Of a stretch of 64,000 nucleotides of DNA, positions 4,097 to 10,025 are shown piece by piece. The notes under the pieces were generated by a model. That model had not been told where the DNA came from and did no database searches. It saw only the letters and a list, made by a program, of their open reading frames with translations. Numbering within the stretch: position 1 is the first letter of the stretch; every line of letters begins with the position of its first letter. Where the stretch lies: the NCBI RefSeq assembly GCF_030440365.1, contig NZ_CP124050.1, forward strand, positions 62,001 to 126,000. Direction: 5' to 3'. The position numbers were made by a program, and so were the translations under genes. The DNA is from [Borrelia] lusitaniae. GTDB lineage: Bacteria > Spirochaetota > Spirochaetia > Borreliales > Borreliaceae.

Positions 4097-4558
4097 ATGA
4101 TAAAGGCATTGCTTACCAATGAGCTTTTTTTATCTTGTCTTATATCAGGAATTTCTGCTCAAGTAATTAAATATGGTATCCAAACCGTAAAAACAAGAAA
4201 GCTAAAACTAACTCCGGCACATCTTTTAAAAAAAATTTTTCTAGAAACAGGAGGCATGCCAAGCAGTCATTCATCAACAGTTACTGCTCTTTCAACCTCA
4301 ATTGCACTAACTGAAGGAATAGGCACAAATTTTATAATAGCTCTTGCCTTTGCCCTTATTACAATAAGAGATTCTTTCGGGGTAAGATATATGTCTGGGG
4401 TTCAAGCAGAATATTTAAATGCATTATCAGAAAAATTGAAAAAAGAAATAAAAATTGACACAACAACAATAAAAGTAGTCAAAGGACACAAAAAGAAAGA
4501 GGTTCTAACAGGCATAATAATAGGAATAGCCTCTGCATACATTGTGTGCTATTTATAA
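4097..4558 (+). CDS. DUF212 (divergent PAP2 family) membrane protein
   Basis: This small 153-residue membrane protein of the YuiD/DUF212 type is distantly related to PAP2 phosphatases. The family motif GGMPSSHSS is at about residues 52-60, followed by a hydrophobic segment, then IRDSFGVRYMSGVQAE and a GHKKKEV motif before a last membrane segment. PAP2-like SSH and GH motifs suggest a lipid-phosphate or phosphate-ester site, but the reaction is unknown for this family. The SD GAGGGGG precedes the ATG by about 7 bases. It sits in the plus-strand run, 15 bases after the M29 gene. Confidence 0.85.
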   Translation: MIKALLTNELFLSCLISGISAQVIKYGIQTVKTRKLKLTPAHLLKKIFLETGGMPSSHSSTVTALSTSIALTEGIGTNFIIALAFALITIRDSFGVRYMSGVQAEYLNALSEKLKKEIKIDTTTIKVVKGHKKKEVLTGIIIGIASAYIVCYL

Positions 4559-4578
4559 ATAAACATAGGAAAAAATAA

Positions 4579-6051
4579 ATGGTACGATTTTTAAGTTTTT
4601 TATGTTTAATTACAGCAATGCCAATTATCAATTCCTGCGATTTGGCTCAATTTGGAGATTACAAACCATTATACTTTACAAATGAAGCCGATCTAAAAAC
4701 TGCTAATGAATATATAAATTCACTAGGATACAAAACAATCTCAGAGCACACAACAAAAATTGACATTTTAGACTTTCCCGAAAATAAAAAAATCACAATA
4801 AATGAAGCAAAAAGACTTAACAATCTTGACTTGAGAAAAAATATATTTTTAAAAAATCTTCCCAATCTTTTTAACATAGAAGATAAAAAAATTCTTTATG
4901 TTGAAAACAGATTTAAAGCTATAGATTTTAAAAAACTAAAAAAAGACCTCAATATTAATGCTGACATACATTCTATTGACTACAAAACAAGAATTAATTT
5001 TATTTCAAGCATAATATTTCTAATCATAATAATTTTATTAATTTTTTCAGACCCAGCAAACTCTATATTTACTTTAATTTTTCTATTAATTTCATCCTTT
5101 GCTTTTATAATAAGTAAAGAAATAATGTATTTTTATCCATTTACAGTTCTATCTTATTTACTATTTTCAATAATCAATAATTTTAACAAAAATTACAATA
5201 AAATATATTTAAAAGAAATAAATTTTTTAACACTAATAGCAAAAATAAAACACTTATTACTGTTTTTTATATTCACAACTCTATATTTCATTACAATCAC
5301 AACCTTTTTTACTACCAATATTGATCCTACTTTGATTGTATTTGTTGCAATACCAGCCCTTTGCATTTTTTTAATTTTCAGCTGGATCAAAACAGAAAGC
5401 AATTTGAAAGATACATTCTTATTCCCGATCGAAATTAAAGAGAAAAAAAAAGTAGAAAAAAAAGCTTTAAAATCAAAAATAGCAATACATATACTGCTAT
5501 TTACACTCTCATTAATTCCATTTGCTTATTCAAGCTATATTCTAAATTCTTATAAAAACATTAACTACCTTTACAGTAAAAAATTAAATTATTTTGACTA
5601 TTTAAATCCTAACAATATTTATATAATGCTAGGATATAATAAAAACATGCCCAACATTGTAGGGTACTTATCCCATATTCTTTATCAAAACGAACTAAAA
5701 TACAATAGTGATGCTAAATATGGAAAAATTCCCAAAAATATAAAAGAAAATTACTTTGAAATCAAAAACGACAAAATAAAAATTAATTCTAAAACTGTTT
5801 ACGAAATAGACAAATCATTTATTGATGAAAATCTTAAAAAAGATCTTGCAAGTCTGTTTTTAAAAAATAAAAACCCAATCCTAATATATAAAGAAAACAA
5901 GAATAATATAAACATAGATAAAAAAAATTACAAAATGCTCTTCTTATTTTCTCTGCCTTTCTTTATATTACTATTCCTATTTAAAGCAATAAGATTTACA
6001 ATTCTTTTAAAAATAAATGAAAAAACCTATAAAAAATATATTCAAGGATAA
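4579..6051 (+). CDS. Unknown multi-span membrane protein with possible lipobox
   Basis: I do not recognise a family for this 490-residue protein. The N-terminus (MVRFLSFLCLITAMPIINSC) looks like a signal peptide ending in a lipobox-like IINSC with Cys20. A polar extracytoplasmic part covers residues 21-135. Hydrophobic segments follow near residues 140-175, 178-200, 222-272 and 300-322, then a second polar part (about 325-450) and a final membrane segment near 453-475. It ends 7 bases before the RnfCD-like gene and is probably cotranscribed with it, so it may be a partner subunit of that complex. That is inference from position. The isoleucine, lysine and asparagine content is extreme even for this genome. 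Confidence 0.75.
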   Translation: MVRFLSFLCLITAMPIINSCDLAQFGDYKPLYFTNEADLKTANEYINSLGYKTISEHTTKIDILDFPENKKITINEAKRLNNLDLRKNIFLKNLPNLFNIEDKKILYVENRFKAIDFKKLKKDLNINADIHSIDYKTRINFISSIIFLIIIILLIFSDPANSIFTLIFLLISSFAFIISKEIMYFYPFTVLSYLLFSIINNFNKNYNKIYLKEINFLTLIAKIKHLLLFFIFTTLYFITITTFFTTNIDPTLIVFVAIPALCIFLIFSWIKTESNLKDTFLFPIEIKEKKKVEKKALKSKIAIHILLFTLSLIPFAYSSYILNSYKNINYLYSKKLNYFDYLNPNNIYIMLGYNKNMPNIVGYLSHILYQNELKYNSDAKYGKIPKNIKENYFEIKNDKIKINSKTVYEIDKSFIDENLKKDLASLFLKNKNPILIYKENKNNINIDKKNYKMLFLFSLPFFILLFLFKAIRFTILLKINEKTYKKYIQG

Positions 6052-6058
6052 ATAGCTA

Positions 6059-8374
6059 ATGCTAGACTTAGAAAAAGTAAAAACAGTTCTTAAAAAATAT
6101 AATAAATATGAAGTAAGTATCGATGAGATTCAAATACCTGAGTATGCCCTAATACCCCTTGAAACAGAAAATTCAAAATCTATAATATACATAATTGAAA
6201 AACAAAAAGTAGAAGAAAATCAAATTTTATCTAAAAATTCAAACCTAGAACTATACACATATTCTCCAATATCTGGAATAGTAGAAAAAATATATACAGC
6301 CAACTTTCCAGACGGAAAAAAATTAAAATCAGCATTAATCAAATTTCAAGGAAAAATAAAAACTGAAAACAATCCCAGTGAAGACGAAATTTCAAGAGAA
6401 AAAACCCTGGCAAAATTAATTCAACTAGGAATTCCCTGGTTTAATGAAAATTCTTTATTTCAATTCATAAGCAAATGTAAAAAAATAGACAAAATGATTT
6501 TGTTAACAAACGGAAAAGATGTATTGACAAATACTTCAGAAGCACTGATGGCAGAAAAATTAGAAGAGATTCTTTCAGGATTCCAAATAATCGACAAAAT
6601 ATTTAAATTCAAAGAAATAATAATAATATCAGACAAAGACAAAATAAAAAAAGAACTTGAAAAATTGAGTATTTTTAAAAACAGAAAAATAAAAATTAAG
6701 TCTTTAGAAAATGCATATCCTTATACAAATCACGAAATGATAATGCACTTTTTATACAATAACAAAAATACAAAAGATGATATAAACCCCCACAACAATA
6801 TTTTATTAGCAAATATTGAAGATTTATACAATGCAAATCTTGTTACACAAAATAACAATCCTTATAAAGAAAAATTTGTAGCTATAAATGGAAATAAAAA
6901 AATCAAAAGTAGAATACTGAAAGTAAAAATTGGAACTTCTTTTAGCCAAATAATAAGTGAAAAAATTGATACAAAAAAATATGAAATTTTTTTAAACAAC
7001 CCAGCTAACAAAATAAAAATTGAAACATTAAACATACCAATAACAAGAGATATTTATAGCCTTACTATATTAAAGAAAAAATCAATATATGACAAAATTA
7101 AGGAATTATTTGTATCCAGTTTTTCGCCATTGCAAATGGAAAATATTATTTTTTCATACCTAAAGAAGGAAAAAAATGATAACAGCAAGTTAAAAATATT
7201 CAAATATACAAACAAAGAAGTAGAAGAAGAAATACATAAAGTTCAAAAAGAAATTAAAGGCAAAATTCTAAATGAAAGCCTAATAAATGAGGTAATATAC
7301 ACTGAAAATAATTTAAAAGATATATATCTTACTATCATACTATCATTATTGCCTAGCTTAATCTTTGCTTTCTTAAATAACACAAAATTTATGACAGATA
7401 CTTTGCTTTTAATATTTATTAGTGTAGCAATCTATATACCAATAATGCTAAAAATTAATTATAAATGTTTATCTTTTTTTGTTTATAATGCCTTAATGAC
7501 AAGCATTATACTGCCTTTAAATTTAGAAATTACGCTAAAAATAACCTCTTTATTATTTACTTTTTTAGTATTCTTTTACTTTTTCAGACTATCAGCATTT
7601 TTAGCAAATCCTATATTAATTTCTTTTATGTTTCTTGTATTAAATTTTCCAGTAAGTTTTAAGCAAACCTATCAAGAAGGTATTAAAAATTCAATATCAA
7701 TGATTCCAACTTGGAATGAAATAATTAACACAAATCCAAACATAAAAAATTTGAAAAGTTTGAATACCTTCACAAGATATGAAAACAAAAAAATCGATGC
7801 AATTGAAAACTTTGTAAATAAAAATATTTTTTCCGTTTTCAATATAATTGTCACAAGATTTTACATTGAAAGTCTTTTAGGGGTTAACAATGAAAAGAAA
7901 ATATCTCCGATCTTGCTTTATTTTGGATTCTTATTAATAGTTGGCAAATATATAATTAACAAATTAATACCATTGTCATTTTATATAAGCTTAATGACAA
8001 TCTCATACATAGCCCATAATATAGGAATGCTAAAGCACATCAGCTCAGATATGTTAACATTACTTATTTCTCCAATACCAATGCTTTTAATATTTACAAT
8101 GGCAACAGAAGTGCAAATAGCGCCTCACTTTAAATTTGAGCAAATAATCTACGGATCACTATTGGCATTGATATACCTTTTAACATTAAGCTATATTCCT
8201 TTTGAAACTTTATCGGTCATAATATCTATTTTTATCTTACAAGTAAGCTCAAACTTAATAAAAAAATATAGTTTAACCTTTAAAATTAAAAAAATAATGC
8301 ATTTTTTGAAAACAAATAAAGAAAAAGCGCTCAAAATCCCCTTAGATAATGAAAAGGATATAATAAAATTATGA
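6059..8374 (+). CDS. RnfC-like/RnfD-like fused membrane protein lacking redox motifs
   Basis: This 771-residue protein is probably two Rnf subunits in one chain. Residues 25-100 resemble the RnfC N-terminal barrel (ALIPLE, then YSPISGIVEKI). Residues 115-235 resemble the 51K-like domain (LLTNGKDVLTNTSEALMAEK against the family INGAECEP...RLM). Residues 272-345 resemble the SLBB part (VAINGNKK, KIGTSFSQII, FLNNPAN, LNIPITRDIYSL). Where RnfC carries its 4Fe-4S cysteines, residues 351-360 read FVSSFSPLQM with no Cys. From about residue 420 on there are many membrane segments and an RnfD-like end (FTMATEVQIAP near 679-689). No SGAT flavin-threonine motif is visible. The assignment is by eye from family memory and the function is unknown. 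Electron transfer by the usual route is unlikely. Confidence 0.7.
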   Translation: MLDLEKVKTVLKKYNKYEVSIDEIQIPEYALIPLETENSKSIIYIIEKQKVEENQILSKNSNLELYTYSPISGIVEKIYTANFPDGKKLKSALIKFQGKIKTENNPSEDEISREKTLAKLIQLGIPWFNENSLFQFISKCKKIDKMILLTNGKDVLTNTSEALMAEKLEEILSGFQIIDKIFKFKEIIIISDKDKIKKELEKLSIFKNRKIKIKSLENAYPYTNHEMIMHFLYNNKNTKDDINPHNNILLANIEDLYNANLVTQNNNPYKEKFVAINGNKKIKSRILKVKIGTSFSQIISEKIDTKKYEIFLNNPANKIKIETLNIPITRDIYSLTILKKKSIYDKIKELFVSSFSPLQMENIIFSYLKKEKNDNSKLKIFKYTNKEVEEEIHKVQKEIKGKILNESLINEVIYTENNLKDIYLTIILSLLPSLIFAFLNNTKFMTDTLLLIFISVAIYIPIMLKINYKCLSFFVYNALMTSIILPLNLEITLKITSLLFTFLVFFYFFRLSAFLANPILISFMFLVLNFPVSFKQTYQEGIKNSISMIPTWNEIINTNPNIKNLKSLNTFTRYENKKIDAIENFVNKNIFSVFNIIVTRFYIESLLGVNNEKKISPILLYFGFLLIVGKYIINKLIPLSFYISLMTISYIAHNIGMLKHISSDMLTLLISPIPMLLIFTMATEVQIAPHFKFEQIIYGSLLALIYLLTLSYIPFETLSVIISIFILQVSSNLIKKYSLTFKIKKIMHFLKTNKEKALKIPLDNEKDIIKL

Positions 8375-8931
8375 CTAATAATTTGATTACATGCTTGATT
8401 ATTAACAATTTAACTTTAATACACTTTGTTGGATTTGAAGACATAAAAATAAAAAATAACACAATCTTAATAAAAAAATACGTCATAATAACAATTACTT
8501 CTTTATTAATATATTCAATATCATTTTATCTTTATAAGCTATTTGCAAATAATAATTTATTGTTTTTAATGCCAATTTTTTATGTAATTTTAATTTACAT
8601 GTTGATATTATTATTTAAAGTATTAAATGATATATTTATTGTTTATAACAAGAAATCAAATTATTCAAACGATTTTATGCTTTCAAATAGCAGCTTAATT
8701 GCAATAACGTTTTTTGCACTTGATAAAAACAACGGATTTTTTGAAGGATTAGAAATACTTATTCTGTCTGCATTTGGCATACTAATAGCTTTAATGTTAA
8801 TAACATCAATAAAAAAATATTTTGATAAAAACCCTAAAATCAAAATATTGGAAAACGAACCAATATATTTTTTTATAATGTTTATTTTATCTTTAATTCC
8901 AAATATAATTATATTAATATACAATCAATAA
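8371..8931 (+). CDS. RnfA-like membrane protein lacking the family cysteines
   Basis: This 186-residue protein has about six membrane segments, the length and layout of RnfA/RnfE/NqrD/NqrE. IINNLTLIHFVGFED (residues 10-24) matches the family start VNNFVLSRFLGICPF, but GFED replaces the GICPF Cys. SNSSLIAITFFAL (105-117) stands where TTNCAVLGVAL is expected, so the second Cys is also gone. These two cysteines bind the membrane 2Fe-2S cluster in Rnf/Nqr. LEILILSAFGILIALMLI corresponds to the next membrane span. The start ATG overlaps the stop of the RnfCD-like gene as ATGA, so the two are translationally coupled. An intact frame argues against a pseudogene. Confidence 0.65.
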   Translation: MTNNLITCLIINNLTLIHFVGFEDIKIKNNTILIKKYVIITITSLLIYSISFYLYKLFANNNLLFLMPIFYVILIYMLILLFKVLNDIFIVYNKKSNYSNDFMLSNSSLIAITFFALDKNNGFFEGLEILILSAFGILIALMLITSIKKYFDKNPKIKILENEPIYFFIMFILSLIPNIIILIYNQ

Positions 8932-8947
8932 TAGCGAGAAATGAGAA

Positions 8948-10025
8948 ATGAAAGAAAAAATAAATACACTGTTTCAACAAGCCAAAGACATTTGGAGGAA
9001 GCTTTGACAAAAAAGAAATCCAAGCTAAAATCGAAAAATACGAAAAAGAAATAAACCAGAAAAACTTTTGGAATGATCCTAAAAGAGCCCAAGAAGTCAT
9101 TAAAGCTCAAAGCATCTTAAAAAATAAAATTGATCCGTGGGAAGAGCTAATCAACAAAATCAAAGACTTAAGCGATCTGTGCGAAATTATTGAAAATGAA
9201 AAAGATATTAGCAGCTTAGAAATCGAATTTAATGCACTTGAAAAACAGTACAAAGATTTACTCACAATTTCTTACTTTAAAGAAGAGCTTGACGCAAACG
9301 GTGCTTTTTTGACTATCCATTCTGGTGCTGGGGGAACTGAAGCATGCGACTGGGTTGCAATGCTTTACAGAATGTACTCAAGATATGCTGAGAGAAAAAA
9401 ATACAAAACAGAACTTATTGATTTGCTTGAAGCAGAAGGTGGAATCAAATCTGTTACAATAGAAATCAAGGGTGATTATGCTTATGGACTGTTAAAAAGT
9501 GAAGTTGGAATACATCGTCTTATAAGAATTTCTCCCTTTGATGCTGCTAAAAAAAGACATACCTCTTTTGCATCAGTATTTGTTGACCCTGTTATTGATG
9601 AAAAAATAGAAATAATAATCAAACCAGAAGATATAAGAATTGATACATACAGAGCATCGGGAGCCGGAGGACAACACGTTAATAAAACATCTTCTGCTGT
9701 AAGAATAACTCACATTAAAACAGGAATAGTAACTCAATCGCAAAGCGACCGAAGTCAGCACAAAAACAAAGAAATGGCAATGAAAGTTTTAAAATCAAGA
9801 CTTTACGAATATTACAAAAATAAAGAAGATGAAAAAAACAAATCTAAGCAAGACACAAAAAAAGAAATTTCTTGGGGCAACCAAATAAGATCTTACGTAT
9901 TTCAACCTTACAATCTAGTAAAAGATCACAGAACAAAATTTGAAAATTCAAACACCACTTCGGTTATGGACGGCAATATAGACAATTTCATAGAAGAGTA
10001 TCTAAAATGGAAAAGCTTAAACTAA
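8948..10025 (+). CDS. prfB: Peptide chain release factor 2 with programmed +1 frameshift
   Basis: RF2 terminates translation at UGA and UAA. The first 19 codons start at ATG 8948 and run to CTT 9002-9004, followed by in-frame TGA 9005-9007. A +1 slip on CTT-T resumes at GAC 9006 and gives about 358 residues in all. The classical shift elements are present: GGAGG, three bases, CTT TGA C. When RF2 is scarce the UGA is read slowly and the shift makes more RF2. The body shows the SPF stop-recognition motif (RISPFDAAKKRH) and the GGQ catalytic motif (GAGGQHVNKT). The end overlaps the next gene by 19 bases. Confidence 0.96.
8993..9008 (+). promoter_or_regulatory. RF2 +1 frameshift site (internal SD plus CTT-TGA-C)
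   Basis: TGGAGGAAGCTTTGAC contains an SD-like GGAGG placed three bases 5' of the slippery CTT, then the TGA stop in its poor C context. This is the arrangement known from E. coli prfB. The protein coded after the shift is continuous with the conserved RF2 body. Confidence 0.93.

Follow-up and report, generated by a model that had tools for sequence, protein, structure and literature searches.

A retained Rnf-type membrane complex without its redox-site motifs in Borreliaceae, and graded redox loss in related spirochaetal operons

In this study we analyzed an rnf-like locus of Borrelia lusitaniae, located in a stretch of 64,000 nucleotides (NZ_CP124050.1, positions 62,001 to 126,000 of the forward strand) which is called the window in the following. 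Two open reading frames (ORFs), ORF A (6059-8374, 771 amino acids) and ORF B (8371-8931, 186 amino acids), had been read from the sequence alone as RnfC fused to RnfD and as RnfA of the Rnf complex (RnfABCDGE, ferredoxin:NAD+ oxidoreductase), both devoid of their electron-carrying residues. We conclude with high confidence that the operon of Borreliaceae is reduced to a DUF212 protein, a membrane protein of an unnamed family (P71), RnfC-RnfD and RnfA, that RnfE is encoded elsewhere, that RnfG was not found, that the redox motifs are gone and that the genes are under purifying selection. From the sequences we infer that no electrons pass through this complex. It is probably also larger than RnfCD and RnfA, with RnfE encoded elsewhere and P71 and the DUF212 protein upstream.

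The gene order in the window is DUF212 (4097), P71 (4579), RnfC-D (6059), RnfA (8371), prfB and a PEGA protein, and the locus comprises the following features.

6059..8374, plus strand: fused RnfC-RnfD, 771 amino acids, without known redox-site motifs (Pfam and NCBIfam matches; 36/36 Borreliaceae genomes)
6095..6349, plus strand: RnfC N-terminal barrel-sandwich domain, residues 13-97 (PF13375, 25.7 bits, cut-off 25.6)
6488..6832, plus strand: Complex1_51K-like domain, residues 144-258 (PF01512, 33.7 bits, cut-off 31.2)
7094..7294, plus strand: shrunken region replacing the two-cluster ferredoxin domain, residues 346-412, cysteine columns gone, with FVSSFSPLQM at 7109-7138
7295..8272, plus strand: RnfD part, residues 413-738, without the flavin serine/threonine motif (PF03116, 41.8 bits, cut-off 27.7)
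8371..8931, plus strand: RnfA, 186 amino acids (hhalign to RnfA profiles; 36/36 Borreliaceae)
8437..8442, plus strand: Glu23-Asp24 codons of RnfA, replacing the first cluster cysteine and its proline (alignment columns)
8683..8694, plus strand: SNSS of RnfA, replacing the second cysteine motif TTNC (alignment columns)
4097..4558, plus strand: membrane protein of the DUF212 (divergent PAP2) family, 153 amino acids, which opens the spirochaetal rnf locus (PF02681, 122.4 bits, cut-off 26.5)
4579..6051, plus strand: P71, a 490-amino-acid membrane protein of an unnamed family which precedes rnfC in spirochaetes (hhalign, profile matches)
8948..10025, plus strand: prfB, a conserved neighbour which anchors the locus and is outside the complex (58% identity to prfB of locus L077)

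The identity of the two coupled ORFs was supported by Pfam and hhalign, and both frames are intact with an ATGA overlap. ORF A exceeded the cut-offs for PF13375 (barely), PF01512 and PF03116 and also matched RnfC and RnfD of PDB 7zc6. The rnfC model TIGR01945 matched at 3.9e-25, yet under the cut-off of that model, and the nqrA model TIGR01936 fitted worse (5.9e-9). Moreover, ORF A aligned over 336 amino acids with RnfC of the divergent treponemal operon L076 (7e-20), and in hhalign its RnfD part reached 91.4% with treponemal and 58.8% with canonical RnfD. For ORF B hmmscan gave no PF02508 match, the sole listed Pfam match being 8xMP far under the cut-off, but profile-profile comparison identified the protein as RnfA (treponemal RnfA 88.9%, canonical RnfA 71.7%, RnfE and RnfD 0.1%). 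Its best matches beyond Borreliaceae were likewise RnfA genes, which stand second among the PF02508 genes of an rnf operon (1.3e-9 in the treponeme G058, for instance), with some weaker matches falling in other frames, and the closest solved relative was RnfA of PDB 9eri (E 0.22). Both RnfCD and RnfA are present in 36/36 Borreliaceae genomes. The fold family is known, and NCBI already lists the Borrelia RnfCD protein as 'RnfABCDGE type electron transport complex subunit D'.

All motif and column counts for Borreliaceae cover 30 of the 36 genomes per gene. The strings which had been noticed in place of cysteine motifs were found at the expected residues, FVSSFSPLQM at 351-360 of ORF A and GFED and SNSS at 21-24 and 105-108 of RnfA. 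The only cysteines of ORF A are at residues 140 and 470, ORF B has a single one at residue 8, and CxxC occurs in none of the 30 RnfCD, 30 RnfA and 30 RnfE proteins. All eight cysteine columns of the RnfC 4Fe-4S clusters are lost in 30/30, and the 2Fe-2S cysteines of RnfA and RnfE are present in 0/30 at each of the four columns. Thus, a parallel loss at three sites had been described correctly but incompletely, as the flavin mononucleotide (FMN) loop of RnfC is lost as well. This loop (GxGGAxxP), expected ahead of the Complex1_51K-like domain, reads GIPWFNE in the window, and W, N/D and E/D occupy the three scored glycine columns in 30/30. A motif-like string for the flavin Ser/Thr of RnfD was found in 0/30, in line with the missing SGAT; in 3/30 a Ser falls in the aligned column, but the motif is missing there too. 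However, canonical spirochaetal operons often carry A[ST]PL instead of strict SGAT at this variable site, and the absence in RnfD is therefore the weakest of the losses. At the former Cys-Pro of RnfA, Glu23-Asp24 is invariant in 30/30 and the first-cysteine column is E in 30/30; Glu110, Arg143 and Glu144 of RnfE are invariant in 30/30 as well.

The sequence-only reading had envisaged a redox-less complex of two genes in Borrelia. Descent from Rnf and redox loss were borne out, but RnfE, P71 and DUF212 were not part of that reading, and similar loss occurs in Treponema and in a further family (f8). A PF02508 search revealed a second weak Borreliaceae match, above the cut-off in 2/36 genomes. 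In the B. lusitaniae genome this PF02508-type ORF encodes 207 amino acids and lies outside the window between argS and an mcp gene, the latter named by eye.

L069:2055-2678 (G000:C1:616554-617177): RnfE, beside argS (hhalign, profile search)

This RnfE is present in 36/36 Borreliaceae, its best matches beyond the family are RnfE genes, and hhalign gave 95.9% with canonical RnfE (5.7e-9) and 76.2% with treponemal RnfE compared to at most 5.3% with RnfA, RnfD and P71. Judged by these profiles, Borreliaceae keep the RnfA/RnfE pair although RnfE sits outside the operon. For RnfG, a profile of the treponemal protein (RnfG') recovered three treponemal genes and gave no convincing match in 8/8 Borreliaceae (best E 0.04). 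FMN_bind proteins were found in 0/36 Borreliaceae. ApbE (PF02424), present in 3/3 treponemes, was not found in the B. lusitaniae genome, the sole Borreliaceae genome searched. RnfB is absent from the window operon, where prfB directly follows RnfA; a genome-wide search was not made. Taken as a whole, the Borreliaceae complex resembles Rnf (PDB 7zc6, 9eri) in the N-terminal and Complex1_51K domains of RnfC and in having homologues of RnfD, RnfA and RnfE. It differs by lacking the FMN loop, the 4Fe-4S clusters, the flavin Ser/Thr motif and the RnfA/RnfE cysteines, by the missing RnfG, by the fusion of RnfC and RnfD, by an operon without RnfB and by the position of RnfE.

Electrons might nevertheless still move via cofactors without a motif, for example a non-covalently bound riboflavin in RnfD, as non-covalent sites are invisible to sequence analysis. 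The related Na+-translocating NADH:quinone oxidoreductase (Na+-NQR) uses riboflavin as a cofactor, and evidence for RNF has been reported as well (PMC4014512). The variability of the RnfD flavin site in canonical spirochaetal operons, where a motif-like string was found in 13/17 further RnfD, is also compatible with such a cofactor. Yet RnfG, the FMN loop, the clusters and the cluster cysteines are all missing for an onward passage of electrons, and searches of the B. lusitaniae genome yielded no ApbE and no FMN_bind protein. We therefore consider hidden electron transfer improbable.

Retention rather than decay had been proposed for this locus, and our data agree with it. RnfCD, RnfA and RnfE are full-length in the 30 sequences examined per gene, from genomes spanning two genera; stops flagged in three RnfCD matches are the natural ends of frames of 761-762 amino acids, and those flagged in two RnfE matches correspond to frames of 197 and 199 amino acids. 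Pairwise ratios of nonsynonymous to synonymous substitution rates (dN/dS; Nei-Gojobori, own script) were calculated for 18 genomes of the own and 12 of the sister genus among the 36 Borreliaceae. The medians (own/sister genus) were 0.14/0.16 for the RnfC part, 0.17/0.18 for the RnfD part, 0.21/0.15 for P71, 0.21/0.20 for RnfA, 0.18/0.19 for RnfE and 0.24/0.17 for the linker, compared to 0.05/0.07 for part of prfB as comparison gene. The highest values for a single pair were 0.87 (70-residue linker) and 0.68 (RnfA), and every pair was below 1. Accordingly, P71, RnfC-D, RnfA and RnfE evolve faster than prfB but are under purifying selection, which holds for both genera, in Lyme and relapsing-fever spirochaetes. 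Strong divergence, gene fusion and missing genes might point to a decaying relic without function, but with the genes kept in 36/36 genomes of two genera, full-length frames, medians of 0.14-0.24 and all pairs below 1 this is very improbable.

The Borreliaceae locus is a reduced form of an inherited spirochaetal rnf operon with the order DUF212 - P71 - RnfC-D-G-E-A(-B), and it lies at the same place as the canonical spirochaetal rnf operons. The treponeme G058 carries a canonical operon (L075) plus the second, divergent operon L076, which is ordered DUF212, P71, RnfC, RnfD, RnfG, RnfE, RnfA. The DUF212 protein of the window shares 38% identity with the one at the equivalent place of L076. P71 matches no Pfam family, and BLAST gave nothing useful between the window P71 and treponemal P71 or between two outer P71 proteins; its homology therefore rests on profiles and position. 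In hhalign the window P71 reached 97.8% with P71 of other spirochaetes, 94.2% with treponemal P71 and 0.5% with treponemal RnfD. Profile A1, built from 22 rows including the protein at the P71 place of the reduced genome G049, matched in 206/297 Spirochaetia genomes, among them 36/36 Borreliaceae. In loci which were all chosen by a P71 match, rnfC comes directly after P71 in 20/20 (L109-L128) and 19/20 (L244-L263). A homologue search with P71 and RnfCD listed only Borreliaceae-like or unnamed proteins; this outcome reflects a word filter and does not demonstrate that homologues are absent elsewhere.

Locus L077 of G049 encodes, in this order, DUF212, a P71-sized protein, RnfC, RnfD, an unassigned membrane ORF and prfB. 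Compared as a single sequence, the protein at the P71 place shows no match to P71 of Borrelia or of treponemes, and it was placed by position and size. Two candidates of this locus were rejected: a 208-amino-acid ORF (L077:4151-4774), regarded as RnfA by position, showed no similarity to RnfA or RnfE, and the ORF after prfB is no PEGA homologue (BLAST E 0.31 to the PEGA protein of the window). L077 is thus tied to the window only by DUF212, RnfC, RnfD and prfB. Beyond the window, prfB was detected in L077, L122 and L254. The window prfB contains, as read from the sequence, a classical CTT-TGA-C programmed frameshift site at 9002-9008, and its start at 8948 is in a different frame from the main ORF. 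In L122 and L124 the gene following rnf is a large ORF, perhaps a glycoside hydrolase by eye, of a kind also found after rnf in L125-L127, L238, L239 and L254. PF02508-type membrane domains also occur in ORFs of 407 and 472 amino acids (L073:5874-7094, L074:6194-7609) with extra C-terminal domains, one of them methyltransferase-like by eye; no other rnf genes lie alongside in the stretches examined.

A comparison across spirochaetes indicated that redox loss is graded from canonical over treponemal to Borrelia operons, and that Treponema carries an intermediate operon. In canonical spirochaetal operons the redox sites are present apart from some exceptions. Among 20 further loci the FMN loop is kept in 15 and lost in 4 (G067, G085, G180, G210), with RnfC absent from one, and the eight RnfC cysteines are present in 19/19 RnfC. 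In the further canonical or partial copies, 13/14 RnfG carry a flavin motif-like string in addition to the RnfD count given above, and the full frame of RnfG from G124 contains VTGATVTF. All RnfE found there outside family f8 hold both cysteines, and one RnfA (G180) lacks its first. Family f8 (G042, G067, G085) has lost the FMN loop and the RnfE/RnfA cysteines and retained the eight RnfC cysteines. For the divergent treponemal operons, counted in distinct rows only, the FMN loop is lost in all 59 rows (two of them gapped there) and the RnfC cysteines are kept in 59/59 (one position being X in one row). The motif [ST]GA[ST] is found in 0/54 RnfG, the first cysteine of RnfE in 3/54 and the second in 0/54, and the RnfA cysteines in 0/53. 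Divergent RnfD has no conserved site residue, as Ser/Thr occurs in 6/59 in an alignment-dependent manner (1/64 rows in another alignment). Motif-like strings were seen in 4/48 named treponemal RnfD, at residues 199, 303 and 307 and, in L217, at residue 146, 13 residues ahead of the site. Hence, the divergent operon resembles that of Borreliaceae in its order DUF212-P71-RnfC-D-G-E-A and in the loss of the FMN loop, the RnfA and nearly all RnfE cysteines; it differs in that all eight cysteines of RnfC are kept, an RnfG lacking the flavin motif is present and RnfC and RnfD are unfused. Four named treponemal loci (L191, L197, L201, L203) show a gene split over two frames.

In the phylogenetic tree the divergent treponemal copies form one group (97/90) and the canonical and partial copies another (100/99). 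The branches leading to Borrelia, family f8 and G049 are long and their order is not resolved, so that the tree does not tell one redox loss from several. Unlike its divergent copy, the canonical copy of G058 nests among the canonical copies from other families of spirochaetes, a hint at a possible later acquisition of the canonical copy.

A treponemal RnfD profile detected RnfD of either kind in 191/195 Treponemataceae genomes, although the best E-value in 13 of the 191 was merely 1e-31 to 1e-11, nearer the range of canonical copies. G108, a genome of the size of Treponema pallidum Nichols, gave a single RnfD match at E <=0.01 (3.9e-49), whereas the congeneric G315 yielded both copies. Its divergent operon is located as follows.

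L238 (G108:C1:168000-181000), 4290-9013: divergent rnf operon with RnfC, D, G, E and A, without P71

The eight RnfC cysteines are kept in L238, and the FMN loop, the flavin motifs of RnfD and RnfG and the site cysteines of RnfE and RnfA are all lost. ApbE and two FMN_bind proteins are encoded elsewhere in G108, and flavinylation there probably concerns something else. For T. pallidum itself, two reports propose an RNF pump which depends on flavin, though they call it atypical or noncanonical (PMC7512555, PMC11717252). The gene content of L238 suggests otherwise and would speak against such a flavin-based pump, provided that G108 represents T. pallidum.

RnfD, RnfA and RnfE form the ion-translocating membrane half of a working Rnf. 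With the electron chain gone, the Borreliaceae complex would be left with this core, a cluster-free N-terminal RnfC on the cytoplasmic side and P71. We tentatively favor, at a probability of about 0.4, that it serves as a conduit or valve for cations (Na+ or H+) which works independently of redox reactions. In such a conduit the RnfA/RnfE pair, with the invariant Glu-Asp at the cluster site, may gate by ion or protonation state in place of cluster reduction, and P71 would be the extracytoplasmic partner. Na+-NQR possesses the homologous membrane subunits NqrB, NqrD and NqrE but differs in that its flavin motif and cysteines are missing in the Borreliaceae complex; its NqrA is also described as being without the cofactors of RnfC (PMC4014512). 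In Bacteroides, RnfB and RnfC mutations which stop electron flow leave the membrane subunits usable for toxin entry (PMC12718326), and the membrane part of Rnf can thus stand without electron flow. The metabolism of B. burgdorferi is iron-independent (PMC3828560). This is the likely setting of the final step and would account for the loss of the last clusters in the Borrelia lineage.

Several observations weigh against a conduit. Columns conserved in >=90% of 16 canonical spirochaetal sequences per subunit are rarely kept in >=80% of the 30 Borreliaceae (RnfA 9/74, RnfE 11/73, RnfD 23/101, RnfC 17/112), and an ion path can therefore not be assumed. In addition, P71 and rnf are not strictly tied. 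G108 has no P71, neither in its operon nor in the class-wide profile search, and in G061 (L254, 989-5107) DUF212 and P71 precede prfB and a PEGA-like protein (6e-11 to that of the window) with no rnf gene in the 11.7-kb stretch, the rest of the genome not having been searched; P71 may thus also act independently of rnf. In G195 and G292 (L122, L124) P71 is followed by RnfC and RnfD only, the rest of these genomes not having been searched for RnfA and RnfE, and such loci fit a role without these two subunits. Alternatively, the remnant might conduct no ions and be a structural platform on which P71, and perhaps the DUF212 protein, is held or positioned. Besides the poorly conserved columns and the loci of G195 and G292, which group only P71, RnfC and RnfD, the position of P71 directly upstream of rnfC and its presence in all Borreliaceae would agree with this. 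We take bb0071 to be probably P71, from its place and its lipoprotein label. In a transposon sequencing study, bb0071 is among the mutants not recovered from larval ticks (PMC6516651). On the other hand, RnfE is kept in 36/36 Borreliaceae outside the operon, the invariant charged residues of RnfA and RnfE exceed the needs of a mere anchor, and G108, which lacks P71, retains RnfC, D, G, E and A. We consider a pure scaffold nearly as likely as the conduit. The combined reading, in which spirochaetes would possess a redox-free Rnf, Borreliaceae an RnfD-A-E conduit with P71 and a carboxylate pair, and T. pallidum an RNF that is no flavin-based pump, is held a little less firmly than its conduit part.

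A redox loss in Rnf of Borrelia or Treponema was not described in the open-licence literature searched, which is weak evidence of absence. The redox-free yet selected state, RnfE outside the operon, P71 as neighbour and the graded series appear to be new. The NCBI name 'electron transport complex subunit D' for the Borrelia protein invites wrong metabolic inference, and our results bear on models of T. pallidum energy metabolism which propose a flavin-based, if noncanonical, RNF pump (PMC7512555, PMC11717252). Rnf and Nqr have been studied as redox-driven ion pumps, and a selected redox-less descendant would set the core that handles ions apart from the electron chain. The series of canonical, treponemal and Borrelia operons displays intermediate states, and the Borreliaceae complex would be a natural test of what RnfD, RnfA and RnfE do alone.

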